Virus record (IMG/VR): IMGVR_UViG_3300047666_000695 | Coordinates: 1 to 42,175 of that record | Reading direction: 5' to 3' (one strand) | Source: a virus | Length of the DNA: 42,175 nt | Part shown: in pieces, positions 1-42,175 of the stretch | Numbering within the stretch: the first letter of the stretch is position 1 | Layout of the letters: every line of letters starts with the position of its first letter | Translations under genes and position numbers: made by a program | The notes under the pieces: generated by a model | The model's database searches: none | Told to the model about the DNA's origin: nothing | The model's input: only the letters and a program-made list of their open reading frames with translations

Positions 1-105
1 TTTATCAGTATCGACCCACACGCGCAAACCACCAAACCCGTCAAGGTCAATGTTCGCCTTAGCAAAGTCAATGACCCGCCGATTCATTCCATATCCAATA
101 TTCAT
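1..105 (-). CDS. Partial recombinase-like regulator, N-terminus only (second copy)
   Basis: The window edge cuts this gene after 35 codons. The visible peptide is identical to the N-terminus of the 162-residue protein at 40111..40599, so a second copy of at least the 5' end exists beyond the edge, or the two are the same locus seen twice. The start is fixed by the other copy and by the promoter at 112..140, which puts the transcript start at or next to the ATG. Confidence 0.75.
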   Translation of the reverse strand, partial: MNIGYGMNRRVIDFAKANIDLDGFGGLRVWVDTDK

Positions 106-111
106 AATGCA

Positions 112-140
112 ACATTACGGCCTTATCATAAACATGTCAA
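112..140 (-). promoter_or_regulatory. Promoter of recombinase-like gene (left copy), leaderless
   Basis: On the minus strand a perfect TTGACA (135..140) is followed after exactly 17 bp by TAATGT (112..117). Only 6 bases separate the -10 box from the ATG at 105, so the mRNA should start at about the A of the start codon and have no leader. No Shine-Dalgarno sequence is possible. The right copy is conserved apart from one spacer base. Confidence 0.7.
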
Positions 141-183
141 CTCATAACCCAGCAAATTAAATCACGATTGTTGAAGATTTTTC

Positions 184-223
184 TTGCAGTGTTTTTGATT
201 GTGTGTTTATGTATTGATAACGG
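184..223 (+). promoter_or_regulatory. Candidate promoter of left accessory array
   Basis: Two overlapping candidates exist: TTGCAG (184..189) with TTATGT (207..212), and TTGATT (195..200) with TAACGG (218..223), both with 17-bp spacing. The second places the -10 box 26 bases before the ATG at 250, close to the spacing seen for other promoters of this phage. Neither is strong, so the exact site is uncertain. Confidence 0.35.
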
Positions 224-249
224 AAGATAAACATAGGGACCGATCAGAT

Positions 250-420
250 ATGCAGACACACACATCATACACATTCGATGAGCGCGATATCCGTGCGGCT
301 TTGGTTATGTATGCCTCCCAGCAGAACGGGGGTGACGGCCCTGTTATTGATCCGAACGATTTAGAGTTTGAAACCTCCACAAGTGACGAAATCAGCGCCA
401 ACGTGGCGGCAACATTATAA
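250..420 (+). CDS. Accessory array protein L1 (56 aa)
   Basis: First gene of the left accessory array. The ATG at 250 is preferred over an upstream ATG at 199 because it follows GGGACCGATCAGAT, a version of the AGGAC ribosome-binding motif used by every gene in both arrays. The protein is acidic, with no membrane segment or recognised motif; a short helical stretch (DERDIRAALVMYASQQ) lies near the N-terminus. Function unknown. Its position right after the duplicated promoter suggests early expression. Confidence 0.6.
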   Translation: MQTHTSYTFDERDIRAALVMYASQQNGGDGPVIDPNDLEFETSTSDEISANVAATL

Positions 421-431
421 GGACCGGAGAC

Positions 432-650
432 ATGAAAGCATTACAGCACCCGCGCGGAGATTGGGTTGTTCAACATGACAGTGGAGTTACGCGTCCCGGC
501 GTTTTTGACAGTGAGGAAACAGCCAACCAAAGCATGTATCTTACCGCTCAAAAATTGCAGTCAATCTATGTTCCACTACGCAGTGGCGGATCGCCGTTGA
601 CAATGGATCAAATCAAAGCTGCATTCCCGCAGCCACAACCGACAACATAG
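432..650 (+). CDS. Accessory array protein L2 (72 aa)
   Basis: Small soluble protein with no recognised family, 11 bases after the preceding stop and behind AAGGACCGGAGAC. It begins MKALQHPRGDWVVQHDSG and ends in a Pro/Gln-rich tail. The N-terminal half reads like a small beta unit (GDWVV, SGV, PGVFDS) followed by a helix. Arrays of tiny genes with matched translation signals are typical of phage early host-takeover regions, but nothing in the sequence points to a particular target. Confidence 0.6.
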   Translation: MKALQHPRGDWVVQHDSGVTRPGVFDSEETANQSMYLTAQKLQSIYVPLRSGGSPLTMDQIKAAFPQPQPTT

Positions 651-662
651 AAGGACACCCAG

Positions 663-869
663 ATGCTTGATTGGAAAGACGACGACAAAGAATACCACAT
701 TGTTGCAGAAAGCGGGTCGGATATTTTCCCTGTCCATCTTCAAATCGAGAAGACAAAAAACGGCAGCTTTTGGGCTTATGCAAACGGCGCAATGTTGGGC
801 CACAGCACGGACATCGAAGGCGTCAAAGAAATCTGCCAGTCGCACCACGACAAATGGCACAAAGATTAG
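663..869 (+). CDS. Accessory array protein L3 (68 aa)
   Basis: Unrecognised small acidic protein behind GAAGGACACCCAG. It starts MLDWKDDDKEYHIVAESGSD, has aromatic and charged strands (FPVHLQIEKTKNGSFWAYA), and ends His-rich (CQSHHDKWHKD). The alternating strand pattern suggests a compact beta-rich fold with a C-terminal helix. Overlapping frames at 667 and 671 have no ribosome-binding site at their starts. Confidence 0.6.
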   Translation: MLDWKDDDKEYHIVAESGSDIFPVHLQIEKTKNGSFWAYANGAMLGHSTDIEGVKEICQSHHDKWHKD

Positions 870-879
870 GACCGATGAT

Positions 880-1188
880 ATGAACAGAGACACATGGATG
901 GGGCTAAAAGATGACGGCACTCAAATCCAGATCAGTCATTCGGGATTGATGGATTGGGCGTATCGCAATGACAAACAAATCACTGTGGGCTGGGGGCATA
1001 GCTTCCAGCACAAAGACAAGCGCTTGGTTCGTGGCGAGTACGTGAAAGAGGCGCTGAAGTCTGGGTGGAATGATCTTGCTCAGATGCTTGTGAAGCACTT
1101 AGGGGATTGCCCCGGCCTTCACATCGAAGGCAACAACTTCAGCGGATGCAATCAGAGCGCCGGAGACTGCCCAACTTGCGGCCAGTAA
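880..1188 (+). CDS. Accessory array protein L4 (102 aa)
   Basis: The frame is open from 667, but the real start is the ATG at 880, directly behind TTAGGACCGATGAT, the same ribosome-binding sequence that precedes the truncated gene at 42127. The C-terminus carries several cysteines (DCPGLH, SGCNQ, GDCPTCGQ), including a terminal CxxC, which suggests metal binding or a disulfide. No family recognised. Confidence 0.6.
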   Translation: MNRDTWMGLKDDGTQIQISHSGLMDWAYRNDKQITVGWGHSFQHKDKRLVRGEYVKEALKSGWNDLAQMLVKHLGDCPGLHIEGNNFSGCNQSAGDCPTCGQ

Positions 1189-1212
1189 AACAACCAACGA
1201 TTAGGACGCACC

Positions 1213-1398
1213 ATGGCTTTAAGAGCGAATATAAATGAACCTGTGATCGGTGGCTTCACTGTCAGTGTCGGCGGGAACTTTACGATGCAGGTTCCGAACA
1301 AAGGCCTTGCCGAAAAAATCATGGAAGCTTTGCGTTTAAGTTACCAGCAAGGGCATGAAGATCGTGTCCAAATGATCCAGCAAGCGCATAGAGCATAG
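1213..1398 (+). CDS. Accessory array protein L5 (61 aa)
   Basis: Small unknown protein behind TTAGGACGCACC. The pattern is a short beta part (GGFTVSVGGNFTMQV) followed by an amphipathic helix (AEKIMEALRLSYQQGHEDRVQMIQQAHRA), a common layout for small phage inhibitors or DNA-binding proteins. The family is not recognised and function is not assigned. Confidence 0.55.
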   Translation: MALRANINEPVIGGFTVSVGGNFTMQVPNKGLAEKIMEALRLSYQQGHEDRVQMIQQAHRA

Positions 1399-1409
1399 AA
1401 GGACGCACC

Positions 1410-1598
1410 ATGCTAACATTTTTTACCGTGCTGTATATCTACGCAAACGGAGCGCCAATTTACGCATTGCCATTCCCAAGCCATGCAACCTGCTCGCAAG
1501 CATTATTGCAGCTTGAGGAGCTTTCCGCTAAATGCCAAGAAACGAACCTGATCACCAGATCACCGCGGCCACAAGCGCGGCCTTGGTCAGATACCTAA
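1410..1598 (+). CDS. Accessory array protein L6 (62 aa)
   Basis: Unknown small protein behind GAAGGACGCACC. The N-terminus (MLTFFTVLYIYANGAPIYALPF) is hydrophobic and could be a weak signal peptide or membrane anchor, followed by two cysteines (TCSQAL, AKCQET). It precedes a small lipoprotein, so both may act at the envelope. This is inferred from hydrophobicity only. Confidence 0.5.
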   Translation: MLTFFTVLYIYANGAPIYALPFPSHATCSQALLQLEELSAKCQETNLITRSPRPQARPWSDT

Positions 1599-1623
1599 AA
1601 CAAACCCCCGAAAGGAAAGAAAC

Positions 1624-1851
1624 ATGAAAACCATTATTGCACTAATTACATGCGCGGCCCTGACATCCGGTTGCGCGTCACCCGCCGAAATTGCGAACCA
1701 ATCGAAAGGCACTTGCGCATTGCTGGGATACTCGGAAACCGACCCACGTTACACGGAATGCACAGAGCGCGGGTTTCGTGGGCAAACCGCCGCGCAACAA
1801 CAAACCCAAGCTGAAATAGTCAGGTTCTTTATTTTTAGGGCGCTGTTGTAA
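1624..1851 (+). CDS. Small putative lipoprotein, last gene of left array
   Basis: A 75-residue protein with a classic export signal: positively charged start (MKTIIALI), hydrophobic core and a probable lipobox ending at Cys17 (LTSGC), giving a predicted mature lipoprotein of about 59 residues with further cysteines. Its ribosome-binding site is AAAGGAAAG, not the AGGAC type of the rest of the array. It is followed by a bidirectional terminator. Superinfection-exclusion lipoproteins look like this, but that role is a guess. Confidence 0.6.
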   Translation: MKTIIALITCAALTSGCASPAEIANQSKGTCALLGYSETDPRYTECTERGFRGQTAAQQQTQAEIVRFFIFRALL

Positions 1852-1857
1852 ACGCAA

Positions 1858-37220: not shown

Positions 37221-37541
37221 ATGCGCCTAGTAATCCTAGAAAGCCCCTTTGCGGGTGACGAACAATACCACATCGAATACGCGCGCATGTGCGTTCGTGA
37301 CAGCCTAATGCGGGGGGAAGCGCCTATTGCGTCACACCTTCTTTACACGCAGCAAGGCATTCTTGCCGATAGCGACCCTGCAGAACGGCAATGGGGGATT
37401 GACGCAGGTCTGGCTTGGCTTCTGGCCGCCGATGCCAGCGTTGTTTATGCAGACTTAGGCATCAGCGACGGGATGCGGCAAGGCATAAAGTCCGCAAAGG
37501 AAACGGGCCTTACTGTTGAGTATCGGTCTATTGAGGCATAG
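37221..37541 (+). CDS. DUF7768-like (nucleoside 2-deoxyribosyltransferase fold) protein (106 aa)
   Basis: Starts MRLVILESPFAGDEQYHIEYA and has MCVRDSLMRGEAPIASHLLYTQ then DAGLAWLLAADASVVYADLGI and SDGMRQGI, a pattern shared with phage proteins related to DUF4406. Members have a Rossmann-like fold and probably act on nucleotides or their sugars. It directly follows the kinase (TAAATG), so both serve nucleotide metabolism. Last gene of the early block. Confidence 0.8.
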   Translation: MRLVILESPFAGDEQYHIEYARMCVRDSLMRGEAPIASHLLYTQQGILADSDPAERQWGIDAGLAWLLAADASVVYADLGISDGMRQGIKSAKETGLTVEYRSIEA

Positions 37542-37606: not shown

Positions 37607-38845
37607 CTAAAACCAAACAGTAAACCGCCCGTCTTGCCCGTCGAATGGGTGATGAACAAAGCACTCAACAGCTTGGCGGTTTACATATCCATTCCGATCA
37701 TGCCAGCCATCAGGTGGCGACATACTGCGGACATATTCAATCTGCACATTATCGCCTTCCATTGATCGCGCGGCATTGTGCATCATTGTCATGCCGATGT
37801 GATCTTTCTCGCGCTTGTGAGACATGACCCCAGCCTGCTTGCGGATCTTATGGTGCAGGTGATGAACGTACCAATAACGATGCGTGCAATCCGAAATATG
37901 CGCCCGCGCCTCTGTCATCATCAGCGGGTAAAGGTCGGCCTCCTTTGCCCCATCGCCATGCGTTACGCCGATCAAGTTGTTTTCAAACCGATAATATTTG
38001 CGGTGTTTTTCTGACAGATTGTATTCCGTCGCGGTAACATCAGGGGCGTTGCGAAACCATGCGCCGACCTCGCGGGCCAAACACCAGCCCATAAGCCAAT
38101 CATGATTTGAGGGGCAGAATATCAGATCAACCGGCGCTGTTAGGCGCGCAAGCTCAATCGCGCCAACATATCCGGCAAATGCGTCCTTATACATTTGGTG
38201 GATTGTGCCGTGCGTGTCTTGCTGAGTACCGCTTGTTGTACTTGACCGCGCGTTGTCAACGTGCAAAATATCGTTGCCGATCACAAACAAGATCCGGCCT
38301 ATACCCATACCCGATGCCTTGCGGATCAACTCGCGCGTGCCTTCAACCATTCGCTGCACTGCAATCTCGCGGCTGTACGTGTAGCCTGTCTCTGTTTCAA
38401 CGCACATCTTGCCAACGTGGACGTCTGCCAGGTCGATCACAAGCAGGCATTCGCCCTCTGGTTTTTGTCGGATCTCGTAATTAGGCACGTCAATAGTTTG
38501 CAGATCATCAATTGCGCCGCGTATTGTGTCAAGGAATTTGCTTGTTTCCGCCTCATCAACAGGAGCGGACCATCGCGTTGTCCCTGTTTTGTTGCCAGTC
38601 GTCGGATCGTAATTGTGAATCCATCCGCCCCTAGCCTCGATCCCGTTAAGCCCAGCGCCTTGCATTGCGGATTGCGCACCATCGGATAAGTGCAACCCGC
38701 GCTCTTTGGCTTTTTTGATCCGTGCCGTTAGTGTGTTCGCGTGCAGCCCTAATTCCTTAGCTGCTAGGTGCGTTTTACCATGGTTTCTGTCCAGCGCGTC
38801 AAGCGCTTCGATTGCAAGCTCATTGCTTAGTGGTGGCGTTGGCAT
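37607..38845 (-). CDS. HTH-metallophosphoesterase fusion (412 aa)
   Basis: The N-terminal 60 residues form a helix-turn-helix (LAIEALDALDRNHGKTHLAA, then LGLHANTLTARIKKAKERG), Fis-like. A calcineurin-type phosphoesterase follows: LLVIDLADVHVGK (D-x-H), FVIGNDILHVDN (GND), FCPSNHDWLMG (NHD) and GVTHGDGAKEADL (GDG). The ATG at 38845 follows AAAAGGGC; a longer frame starts upstream. The fusion suggests recruitment to DNA or RNA for phosphodiester cleavage. Substrate unknown. Confidence 0.85.
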   Translation of the reverse strand: MPTPPLSNELAIEALDALDRNHGKTHLAAKELGLHANTLTARIKKAKERGLHLSDGAQSAMQGAGLNGIEARGGWIHNYDPTTGNKTGTTRWSAPVDEAETSKFLDTIRGAIDDLQTIDVPNYEIRQKPEGECLLVIDLADVHVGKMCVETETGYTYSREIAVQRMVEGTRELIRKASGMGIGRILFVIGNDILHVDNARSSTTSGTQQDTHGTIHQMYKDAFAGYVGAIELARLTAPVDLIFCPSNHDWLMGWCLAREVGAWFRNAPDVTATEYNLSEKHRKYYRFENNLIGVTHGDGAKEADLYPLMMTEARAHISDCTHRYWYVHHLHHKIRKQAGVMSHKREKDHIGMTMMHNAARSMEGDNVQIEYVRSMSPPDGWHDRNGYVNRQAVECFVHHPFDGQDGRFTVWF

Positions 38846-38859
38846 GGTTTTTGCCCTTT

Positions 38860-39027
38860 TTAATGATTGGAAGACAGCCTGTCCGAAATACACCGCATAA
38901 ATCGGACATCACTTGCCCCGCTGTCGGGGTCTGGGTCGCTTGCTTCCATTGCTGCAATGAACCGGGCCCTTGCCCGCTTGCCGTATTCTGTTTTGTAAAA
39001 TCTTGCCAGACGCTCGCAGCTATCCAT
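38860..39027 (-). CDS. Small hypothetical protein (55 aa)
   Basis: Found by direct reading. It has one of the best SDs in the window (AAGGAGG, 7 bases before the ATG). The product starts MDSCERLARFYKTEYGKRAR, is charged and helical with an Asp/Pro-rich turn (EASDPDPDSGASD) and ends RFMRCISDRLSSNH. A possible promoter (GTGACG, 17 bp, TACAAT at 39044..39072) lies upstream. It precedes the phosphoesterase. Confidence 0.7.
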   Translation of the reverse strand: MDSCERLARFYKTEYGKRARARFIAAMEASDPDPDSGASDVRFMRCISDRLSSNH

Positions 39028-39783: not shown

Positions 39784-39937
39784 CAGTATGACCCTCCTTC
39801 GGTGTAGCGTACAGGACATCATTAACGAAGTCCTGATACTGCTTTGCATAACGCGCCTTGCAGTGACATTCCGGTGCAGGCTTTCCGCAGTCCGCAACAC
39901 AGATTCGACCATCGTCAGGATGAGGTGTGAGGCTCAT
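39773..39937 (-). CDS. Small Cys-rich protein (54 aa)
   Basis: Begins MSLTPHPDDGRICVADCGKP, then APECHCKARYAKQYQDFVND. The Cys and His residues (C-x3-C, C-x-C, H) suggest a zinc-binding site. AAGGAGCC is the SD and the ATG overlaps the previous stop as ATGA. Function unknown. Confidence 0.65.
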   Translation of the reverse strand: MSLTPHPDDGRICVADCGKPAPECHCKARYAKQYQDFVNDVLYATPKEGHTDDT

Positions 39938-40110
39938 GCTTCTGGCTCCTTGTCGTTGGCTGTAGGAAATGTCCAAACGGCAATCAGGCAGGCCATGATG
40001 AAGGTTCCGAACTGGTCCCAATTTATCGCCCATCCGAACGCTAGCAAAGTGAAACATTCAGACAAAACCCATGTCACCAGTACAATAATCATCCATCCCC
40101 ATTTCCCCAT
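39934..40110 (-). CDS. Small membrane protein (58 aa)
   Basis: Found by direct reading. Two hydrophobic segments (MIIVLVTWVLSECFTLLAFG and FIMACLIAVWTFP) joined by a short loop. The ATG directly follows the stop of the recombinase-like gene (TAGATG). Holin-like in size, but it is far from the lysis genes; exclusion or signalling roles are equally possible. Confidence 0.6.
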   Translation of the reverse strand: MGKWGWMIIVLVTWVLSECFTLLAFGWAINWDQFGTFIMACLIAVWTFPTANDKEPEA

Positions 40111-40599
40111 CTATTCGCACTCCTTGGCTTTGGGCGCACTGCGCGTCCCAATGTTGTCGTTTAGGGTTGACCGCGTGACCCACGTAAAGCCCGCGTCGTG
40201 AAAGGCCTTGATAGCCGCCTGCCATGTGTACACATCGGGCATATGCCACAGGTCAGAGCCCGCCTTAACCACATCAACAGGGATGCTAGGCCAGCGCGGC
40301 TTAGGACCCGGCTTGCGCGGCTCTGGTGGCGGGCTGGCATCATCGACCAGCGACACAACGGCCCCGTGCGCTTCAATCTTTCGTTTGTTCTCCGCTAGGT
40401 CAAAGCCCTTGCCCAGATCAGCAAGAGACAGCACAAAAACCGCGTCCCCCTCGATCAGCGACATGAGCATGTCTGAAAATTCAGGCCGTACCTTTTTATC
40501 AGTATCGACCCACACGCGCAAACCACCAAACCCGTCAAGGTCAATGTTCGCCTTAGCAAAGTCAATGACCCGCCGATTCATTCCATATCCAATATTCAT
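40111..40599 (-). CDS. Catalytically dead serine-recombinase-like regulator (162 aa)
   Basis: Residues 1 to 88 follow the resolvase N-terminal domain: NIGYGMNRRVIDFAKANIDL, VWVDTDKK, IEGDAVFVLSLADLGKG, and GAVVSLVDD. But the nucleophile Ser (YARVST in resolvases) is absent, and the catalytic D-R-L-G-R is A-D-L-G-K, so it cannot cut DNA. A basic proline linker (EPRKPGPKPRWPS) leads to a C-terminal region resembling a helix-turn-helix (WQAAIKAFHDAG, TWVTRSTLNDNIG). It probably binds DNA, perhaps its own duplicated promoter. First gene of the minus operon, leaderless. Confidence 0.8.
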   Translation of the reverse strand: MNIGYGMNRRVIDFAKANIDLDGFGGLRVWVDTDKKVRPEFSDMLMSLIEGDAVFVLSLADLGKGFDLAENKRKIEAHGAVVSLVDDASPPPEPRKPGPKPRWPSIPVDVVKAGSDLWHMPDVYTWQAAIKAFHDAGFTWVTRSTLNDNIGTRSAPKAKECE

Positions 40600-40605
40600 A
40601 ATGCA

Positions 40606-40634
40606 ACATTACGGCCTTATTATAAACATGTCAA
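40606..40634 (-). promoter_or_regulatory. Promoter of recombinase-like gene (right copy), leaderless
   Basis: TTGACA (40629..40634), 17 bp, TAATGT (40606..40611); ATG begins 6 bases after the -10 box, at 40599. Differs from the left copy at one spacer base. Confidence 0.7.
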
Positions 40635-40677
40635 CGCATAACCCAGCAAATTAAATCACGATTGTTGAAGATTTTTC

Positions 40678-40717
40678 TTGCAGTGCTTTTGATTGTGTGT
40701 TTATGTATTGATAACGG
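40678..40717 (+). promoter_or_regulatory. Candidate promoter of right accessory array
   Basis: Equivalent to 184..223. Candidates TTGCAG with TTATGT and TTGATT with TAACGG; the base change at 40686 (C for T) lies in the spacer of the first. The -10 of the second is 24 bases before the ATG at 40742. Confidence 0.35.
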
Positions 40718-40741
40718 AAGATAAACAAAAGGACCAATCAA

Positions 40742-41020
40742 ATGCGCAACGAAATAAAACTGACAGACGGCCAAATCCTTGAAGCCTTTTTAGCCGCTGG
40801 CCATGACGATCTGGACATGGACGATCTGGTCCTGACACTCGAAACGCTGGAAGGCTTTCGCACATCAGCGACGACATGGGCCGAATGCAAGAGCGTCAGC
40901 AATGAGACTTATGCCACTTTTGCAGCAGTCGAATTTGACGGAGTGCAGGTCAACCCCGGGCAGAAGCGCCACGCTCTTACTGTCATTGATTTTGGCGCTG
41001 TTCGCGCATCCTACAAATAA
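40742..41020 (+). CDS. Accessory array protein R1 (92 aa)
   Basis: First gene of the right array, behind AAAGGACCAATCAA. Starts MRNEIKLTDGQILEAFLAAG with a helical acidic part (DDLDMDDLVLTLETLEGF), then beta strands (YATFAAVEFDGVQVNPGQKR, HALTVIDFGAVR). It occupies the place that L1 has in the left array but shares no sequence with it. Function unknown. Confidence 0.65.
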   Translation: MRNEIKLTDGQILEAFLAAGHDDLDMDDLVLTLETLEGFRTSATTWAECKSVSNETYATFAAVEFDGVQVNPGQKRHALTVIDFGAVRASYK

Positions 41021-41031
41021 GGACCGAACAG

Positions 41032-41493
41032 ATGCGCGAAGGCGATATATATAGCTGGCACTGGGCAGACAGGGAGAAACACGCAGACAGCGCGAATTTC
41101 CGCAACTATCACTGCAAGTCGCGGATTGCTGAATATGACGGGAAGTCCCTGACAGACACGTTCTGGGTGTCCAGAACAGACGGATCATGGCTCAACCCTG
41201 ACGACGTTTTTCTAACCTTGTTGGGCAATAAAAATGACATGACTGTTTTGACTGACAGACCTGAATTTTACCGCCATGAAGACTTAGTTAGCATGAAGCA
41301 CTCCAACAATTCAGGCGCGCCGATTTACCTAAAGGCAGAGGCAAAAAGAAACGCCGAAGTAATGCGCGACCTGCTGCGTAGAAAACAGGAAGAAAAACGC
41401 TACGCAATACGGAGCGCAACACAAGATTTGGAGCGCCTAGCCGTGGCTGAACGTGACATCGAAAATGGCGCAATCGAAAAACTATATTTTTAA
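41032..41493 (+). CDS. Accessory array protein R2 (153 aa)
   Basis: The longest array gene, behind AAGGACCGAACAG. The N-terminus is aromatic and beta-rich (MREGDIYSWHWADREKHADS, then YHCKSRIAEYDGKSLTDTFW), the C-terminal half a long charged helix (KAEAKRNAEVMRDLLRRKQE) that may be a coiled coil. No known family. Confidence 0.65.
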   Translation: MREGDIYSWHWADREKHADSANFRNYHCKSRIAEYDGKSLTDTFWVSRTDGSWLNPDDVFLTLLGNKNDMTVLTDRPEFYRHEDLVSMKHSNNSGAPIYLKAEAKRNAEVMRDLLRRKQEEKRYAIRSATQDLERLAVAERDIENGAIEKLYF

Positions 41494-41511
41494 CCAAAGA
41501 TTAGGACCGTC

Positions 41512-41640
41512 ATGCGCTGGATTATCAAATACTGCCAGCGATGCGGCGGCGCAAAGGTTGTCGCCCGTCGCGGTAGCCCAATCAAATATGTAACCTGTCC
41601 GCGCTGCTCTGGCAGTGGCGGCAAAACCGAACAAAGATAA
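41512..41640 (+). CDS. Zinc-ribbon microprotein (42 aa)
   Basis: Found by direct reading. Two CxxC pairs in DnaJ-like style, YCQRCGGAKVVARRGSP and TCPRCSGSGGKTEQR, almost the whole protein. Behind TTAGGACCGTC. Such stand-alone ribbons often bind RNA, DNA or RNA polymerase; the target is unknown. Confidence 0.7.
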   Translation: MRWIIKYCQRCGGAKVVARRGSPIKYVTCPRCSGSGGKTEQR

Positions 41641-41651
41641 GGACACTCAAC

Positions 41652-41903
41652 ATGGACGAAGAACAGCAGATGCAAGAGGCAGTACGTCAAGATCAAGCTC
41701 CGCGCACTGAGCGGATTGAGGTGGCTGCAACGCAAATAGTCATTGATCGGCAGTCGTTGCTTGATGTGATCCGCGCCCTTGATGTTGGGGCGAAGGTTGC
41801 TGACCTGCCTGCGTCGATGGATCGGCTGCGTGAGCCGTTTTTTTTGGATGAATTTTCAAGCGGTAAAGCCCGTTCTGACTTCTCAATGAACACATACGCA
41901 TAG
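41652..41903 (+). CDS. Accessory array protein R4 (83 aa)
   Basis: Behind AAGGACACTCAAC. Acidic N-terminus (MDEEQQMQEAVRQDQAPRTE), then IEVAATQIVIDRQSLLDVIR and a loop rich in Ala and Asp, ending SFSMNTYA-like in hydrophilic residues (SGKARSDFSMNTYA). No recognised family. Confidence 0.6.
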   Translation: MDEEQQMQEAVRQDQAPRTERIEVAATQIVIDRQSLLDVIRALDVGAKVADLPASMDRLREPFFLDEFSSGKARSDFSMNTYA

Positions 41904-41916
41904 AAGGACCAAGAAC

Positions 41917-42108
41917 ATGACAGCATGGTCAATGAATTGGAACGACTTAACCAATGAAGAACGCAGCCAGATAGTTGCGAAGGCTGAATACAGCAGTTGC
42001 CCATGTTGCGGCGACTCTGGCCAAACGGCGCTAGATGTTTTCAATGAGGTTGTTTTGGTAATCCAGCAGCGCGACAAAAGAGAAATCAACGCCACACTAA
42101 TGGCGTAG
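41917..42108 (+). CDS. Accessory array protein R5 (63 aa)
   Basis: Behind GAAGGACCAAGAAC. Starts MTAWSMNWNDLTNEERSQIV, has one CxxC site (SSCPCCGDSG), and a helical end (VFNEVVLVIQQRDKREINAT). Function unknown. Confidence 0.6.
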   Translation: MTAWSMNWNDLTNEERSQIVAKAEYSSCPCCGDSGQTALDVFNEVVLVIQQRDKREINATLMA

Positions 42109-42126
42109 CAAACAAGGACCGATGAT

Positions 42127-42175
42127 ATGGCGAACCGGATCAAAGACGCGCTAGATGCCGCCGCTGCCATTGCCG
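42127..42175 (+). CDS. Accessory array protein R6, cut by window end
   Basis: Only the first 16 codons are present (MANRIKDALDAAAAIA). The ATG follows AAGGACCGATGAT, the same sequence as before the gene at 880, so the right array continues beyond the window. Confidence 0.6.
   Translation, partial: MANRIKDALDAAAAIA

Follow-up and report, generated by a model that had tools for sequence, protein, structure and literature searches.

A serine recombinase relative lacking catalytic residues is a candidate regulator of divergent promoters in phages

We analysed the whole of a 42,175-base virus record (IMGVR_UViG_3300047666_000695; hereafter the window) and find that a gene at positions 40111-40599, on the minus strand, encodes a 162-residue protein with the core fold of a serine recombinase, in which the catalytic serine and other defining residues have been replaced. 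We think it fairly probable that this protein is a catalytically dead, shortened relative of the resolvase-type serine recombinases that phages have kept as a DNA-binding regulator of divergent promoters.

Results

The gene and its setting

The record carries tail tape-measure and head genes as well as genes for a terminase, a primase and a helicase. The pseudo-recombinase gene begins with ATG and heads a leftward series of genes, opposite a rightward operon of small genes. Directly downstream is a 58-aa open reading frame (39934..40110, minus strand) whose ATG abuts the stop codon of the pseudo-recombinase gene, and the two may well share a transcript. The gene is under purifying selection, with dN/dS values of 0.11-0.34 in the six pairwise comparisons of four close family members.

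An exonuclease-like gene of the window (37607-38893, minus strand) shares 78% identity with a gene of Octadecabacter Antarctic DB virus 2, and for this reason a marine roseobacter-type host is likely. The exonuclease-like gene also encodes an N-terminal stretch resembling HTH_30/HTH_8. On the plus strand at 37221-37541 is a gene for a DUF7768 protein (E 1.1e-30), adjoining a gene that matches a thymidylate-synthase-type PHROG. Among the DB virus 2 genes that we inspected (gp42-gp45, gp72 and gp74), gp43 lies at a comparable position, and the family profile does not identify it as a relative.

A small and divergent protein family

Searched alone, the window protein matched no Pfam, PHROG or NCBIfam model. 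Three close relatives in viral contigs (L001, L002 and L003) are 90, 77 and 75% identical to it. A profile of these four proteins retrieved only seven sequences from the PDB, all of them gamma-delta or Tn3 resolvases, with weak E-values of 0.18-0.99. Run against 12,357 open frames from 81 sequences, mostly loci collected via the neighbouring exonuclease gene, the same profile added two members, L022 (E 2.2e-8) and L078 (2.3e-7); a genome scan added another, L088, in Hoeflea sp. YIM 152468. The family as collected thus has seven distinct members, six in viral records and one in the Hoeflea genome, and their alignment is the basis for the structural model and the residue comparisons below. Between lineages, protein identity is only 24-32% (about 30% for L022). 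The cut-off of the resolvase model PF00239 (23.3 bits) is exceeded by one member, L002, at 24.0 bits; L022 falls below it at 12.0 bits, and the window protein and the other four members have no match.

Searches of a phage collection with four family proteins and of plasmids returned no homologue, and a first scan of genome contigs returned 193 stretches with no relative among them. When the family profile was run against 385 genomes of the class and 394 of the family to which Hoeflea belongs, two and five genomes, respectively, were matched besides Hoeflea. Three of these seven matches are resolvase-like: L095 and L099 are canonical, and L098 is degenerate. The other four appear unrelated, L096 being an end-only match with an internal stop and L100-L102 being judged by sequence. 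A literature search, with most subscription papers outside its reach, found no account of the family.

Other degenerate proteins were noticed as well. L098 (1204-1821, minus strand; the same gene as L137 2196-2813, minus strand), from a genome of Hoeflea's family, encodes another degenerate serine recombinase, in which, by eye, Ser10 is replaced by Ala, Asp67 by Ser and Arg71 by Thr, with Arg68 retained; the protein has a TetR/AraC-like helix-turn-helix at its C-terminus, scores 40 bits against PF00239 and is a possible intermediate. In three further genomes, related resolvase-like proteins (L133 473-1129, plus strand; L134 378-980, minus strand; L135 434-1162, plus strand) retain YARVS and, by eye, have lost the arginines of LDRLGR. 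These form what looks like an independent second group of pseudo-resolvases.

Residues 1-88 adopt the serine recombinase core fold

An AlphaFold2 model built from the seven sequences has a mean pLDDT of 83 and a pTM of 0.53; an earlier model from four sequences was poor (pLDDT 48.5), and its Foldseek matches were set aside. When the seven-sequence model was compared with the PDB using Foldseek, the best 32 matches were all serine recombinases, 16 of them with E<=0.001. A VIA comparison aligned residues 1-88 (40336..40599, minus strand) with residues 2-96 of gamma-delta resolvase (2rsl_C) with a Z of 11.5 and an rmsd of 2.1 over 83 residues, at 24% identity. Among the Foldseek and VIA matches listed there were no tyrosine recombinases or cI-type proteins, an absence that excludes neither. 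Compared profile to profile with 15 canonical resolvases, the family alignment reached a probability of 94.6%, as against 0.4% for its reversed version; the 15, out of 32 loci, were those that passed a filter on sequence pattern and length in which score played no part. The kinship of the family to the serine recombinases is therefore solid. The initial annotation, made from the DNA sequence of the window, had called for a structure prediction to be compared with gamma-delta resolvase and had named an unlike fold as the outcome that would count against it; the fold found is that of the serine recombinase core.

The same annotation described the outline of the resolvase domain as intact, which we do not confirm, because the long helix E is missing. 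In the model, a Pro-rich linker comes after the last strand (residues 81-84), the stretch between residues 84 and 108 contains no long helix, and structural alignments to resolvases stop at residue 88-90.

The catalytic residues are replaced

Residue numbers for catalytic positions follow gamma-delta numbering, with positions 45-96 seen in the profile search of the PDB. The position of Ser10 is occupied by Arg, that of Arg8 by Met, Ile or Val, and that of Arg68 by Asp in all seven members, all of which have also lost Asp67. The equivalent of Arg45 is retained in five of the seven. Arg71 had been listed with Ser10 and Arg68 as replaced in the window protein, and for the latter two this extends to the whole family; the Arg71 position varies (K, K, R, Q, R, R and G across the members) and is still Arg in three of seven. 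Six of the seven proteins have no serine at all in their first 22 residues, such that there is no obvious alternative nucleophile in this region, and the alignment revealed no alternative active-site serine, a finding that the initial annotation had named as evidence against its proposal. As judged from these sequences, the protein is not an active serine recombinase, since the defining residues that we tested are absent. The pairing of Arg at position 10 with Asp at position 68 resembles a charge swap, which may have taken place within the former pocket. Around the former active site, Y5, N8, R9, F14, D32 and D61 (numbering of the family protein) are invariant in all seven members.

A basic linker and a possible helix-turn-helix

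At the place of helix E, residues 89-107 (40279..40335, minus strand) form the Pro-rich linker, which had been described as basic and is, with four Lys/Arg and one Asp/Glu. Beyond it, residues 108-150 (40150..40278, minus strand) are modelled as three helices (108-118, 126-135 and 143-149) that possibly form a helix-turn-helix. An hhalign comparison of the C-terminus with the C-termini of resolvases, using the 14 of 33 canonical loci that remained after others had been dropped by pattern or length and not by score, gave a weak probability of 32.5, the reversed control giving 0.1; HTH_32 was matched by one member only (E=0.011). The net charge of residues 108-162 is not positive (six Lys/Arg, seven Asp/Glu). 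The earlier description of the C-terminus as helix-turn-helix-like is thus weakly supported. The usual dimer arm is lost with helix E, and a different interface would be required for the protein to bind an operator as a dimer.

Divergent promoters at a fixed distance from the start codon

The gene had been described as lying next to a divergent promoter, and a divergent promoter region is indeed present and conserved in relatives. The leftward promoter, TTGACA-17-TAATGT (40606..40634, minus strand), ends 6 nt before the ATG and has a counterpart at the same position in all seven members, one of them with a mismatch. The rightward promoter, TTGCAG-17-TTATGT (40678..40706, plus strand), has counterparts in L001, L002 and L003; in these three and the window, both promoters have a TTG-type -35 box, a 17-nt spacer and a -10 box ending in T.

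In six of the seven members, TTGAC begins exactly 35 nt before the ATG, with TGGAC in the seventh, and this spacing is kept across lineages whose proteins have diverged as far as described above. In a control set from 16 sources, TTGAC is found at -35 in seven of 1168 open reading frames that start with ATG and encode at least 50 aa, and six of these seven are the family starts. Because the -35 box is fixed 35 nt before the ATG, we infer that the mRNA begins at the A of the start codon, that is, that it is leaderless. A Shine-Dalgarno-like tetramer is absent from six of the seven members; L022 has AAGG at such a place.

Between the two -35 boxes, 40635..40677 is a candidate operator region containing an inverted TCAAC...GTTGA that is not significant alone. 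Inverted and direct repeats in the seven divergent regions are mostly not above those in shuffled sequences (P 0.05 to 1.0 for inverted repeats), the exceptions being an inverted repeat in L088 (P 0.05) and a direct repeat in L078 (P 0.03), and hence we claim no operator. GTTGA recurs at -36 in six of seven members and overlaps the -35 box, so it is not independent evidence. Window-wide, the conserved promoter block is present only at the two contig ends, as is the -35 region motif, and a second motif is no commoner than expected by chance. The initial annotation cast the protein as a master switch that controls or bridges array promoters. With no copies of the promoter block or of an operator found in the window beyond the contig ends, this proposal is unsupported, and with neither an operator established nor a second target promoter, it is unproven.

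The small genes are preceded by AAGGACC-N-ATG blocks (419-434, 40729-40744, 41019-41034, 41904-41919 and 42114-42129), of which the window has five where 0.63 would be expected; these are probably a recurrent ribosome-binding cassette rather than promoters.

The accessory operon and the contig ends

The rightward operon of small open reading frames (40742..42175, plus strand) runs off the edge of the contig. One of its genes, 41032-41493, is conserved in L001 and L022, and L022 has the same divergent layout and a neighbour of the same gene family (88% identical) though its pseudo-recombinase is only distantly similar. This family of 153-aa proteins (L022 7173-7631, L001 5708-5250 and the window gene) is 88-92% conserved even though the adjacent pseudo-recombinases differ greatly, and has no PHROG match.

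Positions 1-249 repeat 40495-40743 with 242 of 249 bases identical (97%), the first 126 being unchanged. The repeat comprises a second copy of the 5' end of the gene (1..105, minus strand), which holds residues 1-35 only because the contig starts there, and a second copy of the divergent promoter region (106..249). It is followed by an alternative version of the accessory operon (250..1857, plus strand), which leads towards an amidase (lysis) gene at 2412-2939, so that the two copies are followed by different sets of small genes. The duplication of promoter and 5' end that had been noted is thus present as a repeat. Since the contig start truncates the first copy, and all three close relatives have a single copy, we prefer to read it as the wrap-around of one circular or circularly permuted locus, probably assembled once per strain variant. 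A true tandem duplication feeding two accessory operons, which would account for the near-identity of the two ends and for their divergence after base 126, where an exact terminal repeat would not diverge, is very unlikely: the contig start cuts the first copy exactly, the relatives are single-copy, and the two accessory versions read more naturally as alternatives of one locus.

The member in L078 lies near a tyrosine integrase and that in L088 is in a bacterial genome, an arrangement that fits temperate elements. Among eight records searched for integrase and resolvase families, an integrase exceeded the cut-off only in the record of L078, and no resolvase did so in any. In the window record, no PF00589 integrase and no PF00239 recombinase was found, and a role in lysogeny is therefore doubtful for the window phage.

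Discussion

We propose that the pseudo-recombinase most likely autoregulates its own divergent promoter pair, a reading strengthened by the conservation of the apparently leaderless promoter. The proposal builds on the fold of residues 1-88, the loss of catalytic residues, purifying selection and the promoter geometry. Transcription of the gene would start at the A of its ATG to give a leaderless mRNA, like those of lambda cI and PaaR2, that would be translated as such; the C-terminal helices would recognise sites in the stretch separating the two -35 boxes; and the bound protein would reduce transcription of both its own gene and the opposed accessory operon. The role of the core domain would by now be limited to protein contacts or stability. 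Such regulation would resemble that by active Tn3 resolvase, which autoregulates tnpR and the divergent tnpA at promoters inside res (PMC7157771), such that losing catalysis while keeping regulation would be a short step. Like Tn3 and gamma-delta resolvase (TnpR, PF00239), the window protein has the serine recombinase core, and its gene and a divergently oriented neighbour are separated by the promoters of both; unlike them, it lacks the catalytic serine, Arg8, Arg68 and helix E, and the region has no recognised res subsites.

Decay of a formerly active resolvase would explain why catalytic residues and helix E are gone, and yet the reading frame is open in all seven members, the dN/dS values already contradict decay, and residues are invariant across lineages and the promoter conserved, leaving this explanation barely credible. 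The invariant residues around the former active site are more than a pure scaffold would need, and R9 and D61 jointly replace S10 and R68, as might be expected if the core pocket had acquired a new enzymatic or ligand-binding role, making the protein nuclease-like or ligand-sensing rather than a plain repressor. We regard this as unlikely, since no known enzyme signature was matched and a salt bridge between R9 and D61 could account for the pair structurally. An equally improbable alternative is that the protein, with its recombinase-derived fold, acts in host takeover or anti-defence on host proteins or host recombinases, for example as a dominant-negative partner, its position beside the promoters being incidental. 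The variable region of small early-type genes in which it sits, and the fast divergence between lineages (24-32% identity), would suit such a role; the divergent and leaderless placement is nonetheless fixed in all lineages, and helix E, the interface through which a recombinase dimer would be poisoned, is missing.

Parallels to autoregulation by the pseudo-recombinase can be drawn from other viral proteins. Lambda cI and PaaR2 have a DNA-binding fold different from that of the window protein. They share with it a divergent arrangement of promoters and an mRNA for the regulator that lacks a leader, the latter being only predicted here; leaderless mRNAs are described for both, with paaR2 adjoining a divergent promoter (PMC8630535). 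MrpR (YopR), the master repressor of phage SPbeta, is reported to have a recombinase fold, to lack recombination activity and to bind DNA (PMC10516654). It is thus a precedent for what we predict, a phage repressor with a recombinase fold and no recombination activity, with the differences that MrpR has a tyrosine recombinase fold and repeated operators in the genome, whereas here the fold is that of serine recombinases and such operators were not seen. Vaccinia F16 is a eukaryotic virus protein, reported at nucleoli, and we know of no tie between it and a divergent promoter. Likened by description only, it too is a viral protein from the serine recombinase superfamily that is predicted to be catalytically dead (PMC11980589), and a dead serine recombinase as such is thus not new, having already been predicted. 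New in this analysis is the constant position of TTGAC, which starts exactly 35 nt ahead of the ATG in six of the seven members, the seventh having one mismatch.

More tentatively, and with rather less confidence than in regulation of divergent promoters as such, we suggest that the family could be a new class of phage repressor, derived from a dead serine recombinase, expressed from a leaderless, cI-like promoter and serving as the central switch in phages and prophages of Alphaproteobacteria, as a counterpart of MrpR. If the protein does regulate its promoters, it would provide a serine recombinase parallel to MrpR, showing that phage regulators have arisen from both of the unrelated recombinase folds, and a family that mostly goes unrecognised by Pfam, PHROGs and NCBIfam would gain a function.
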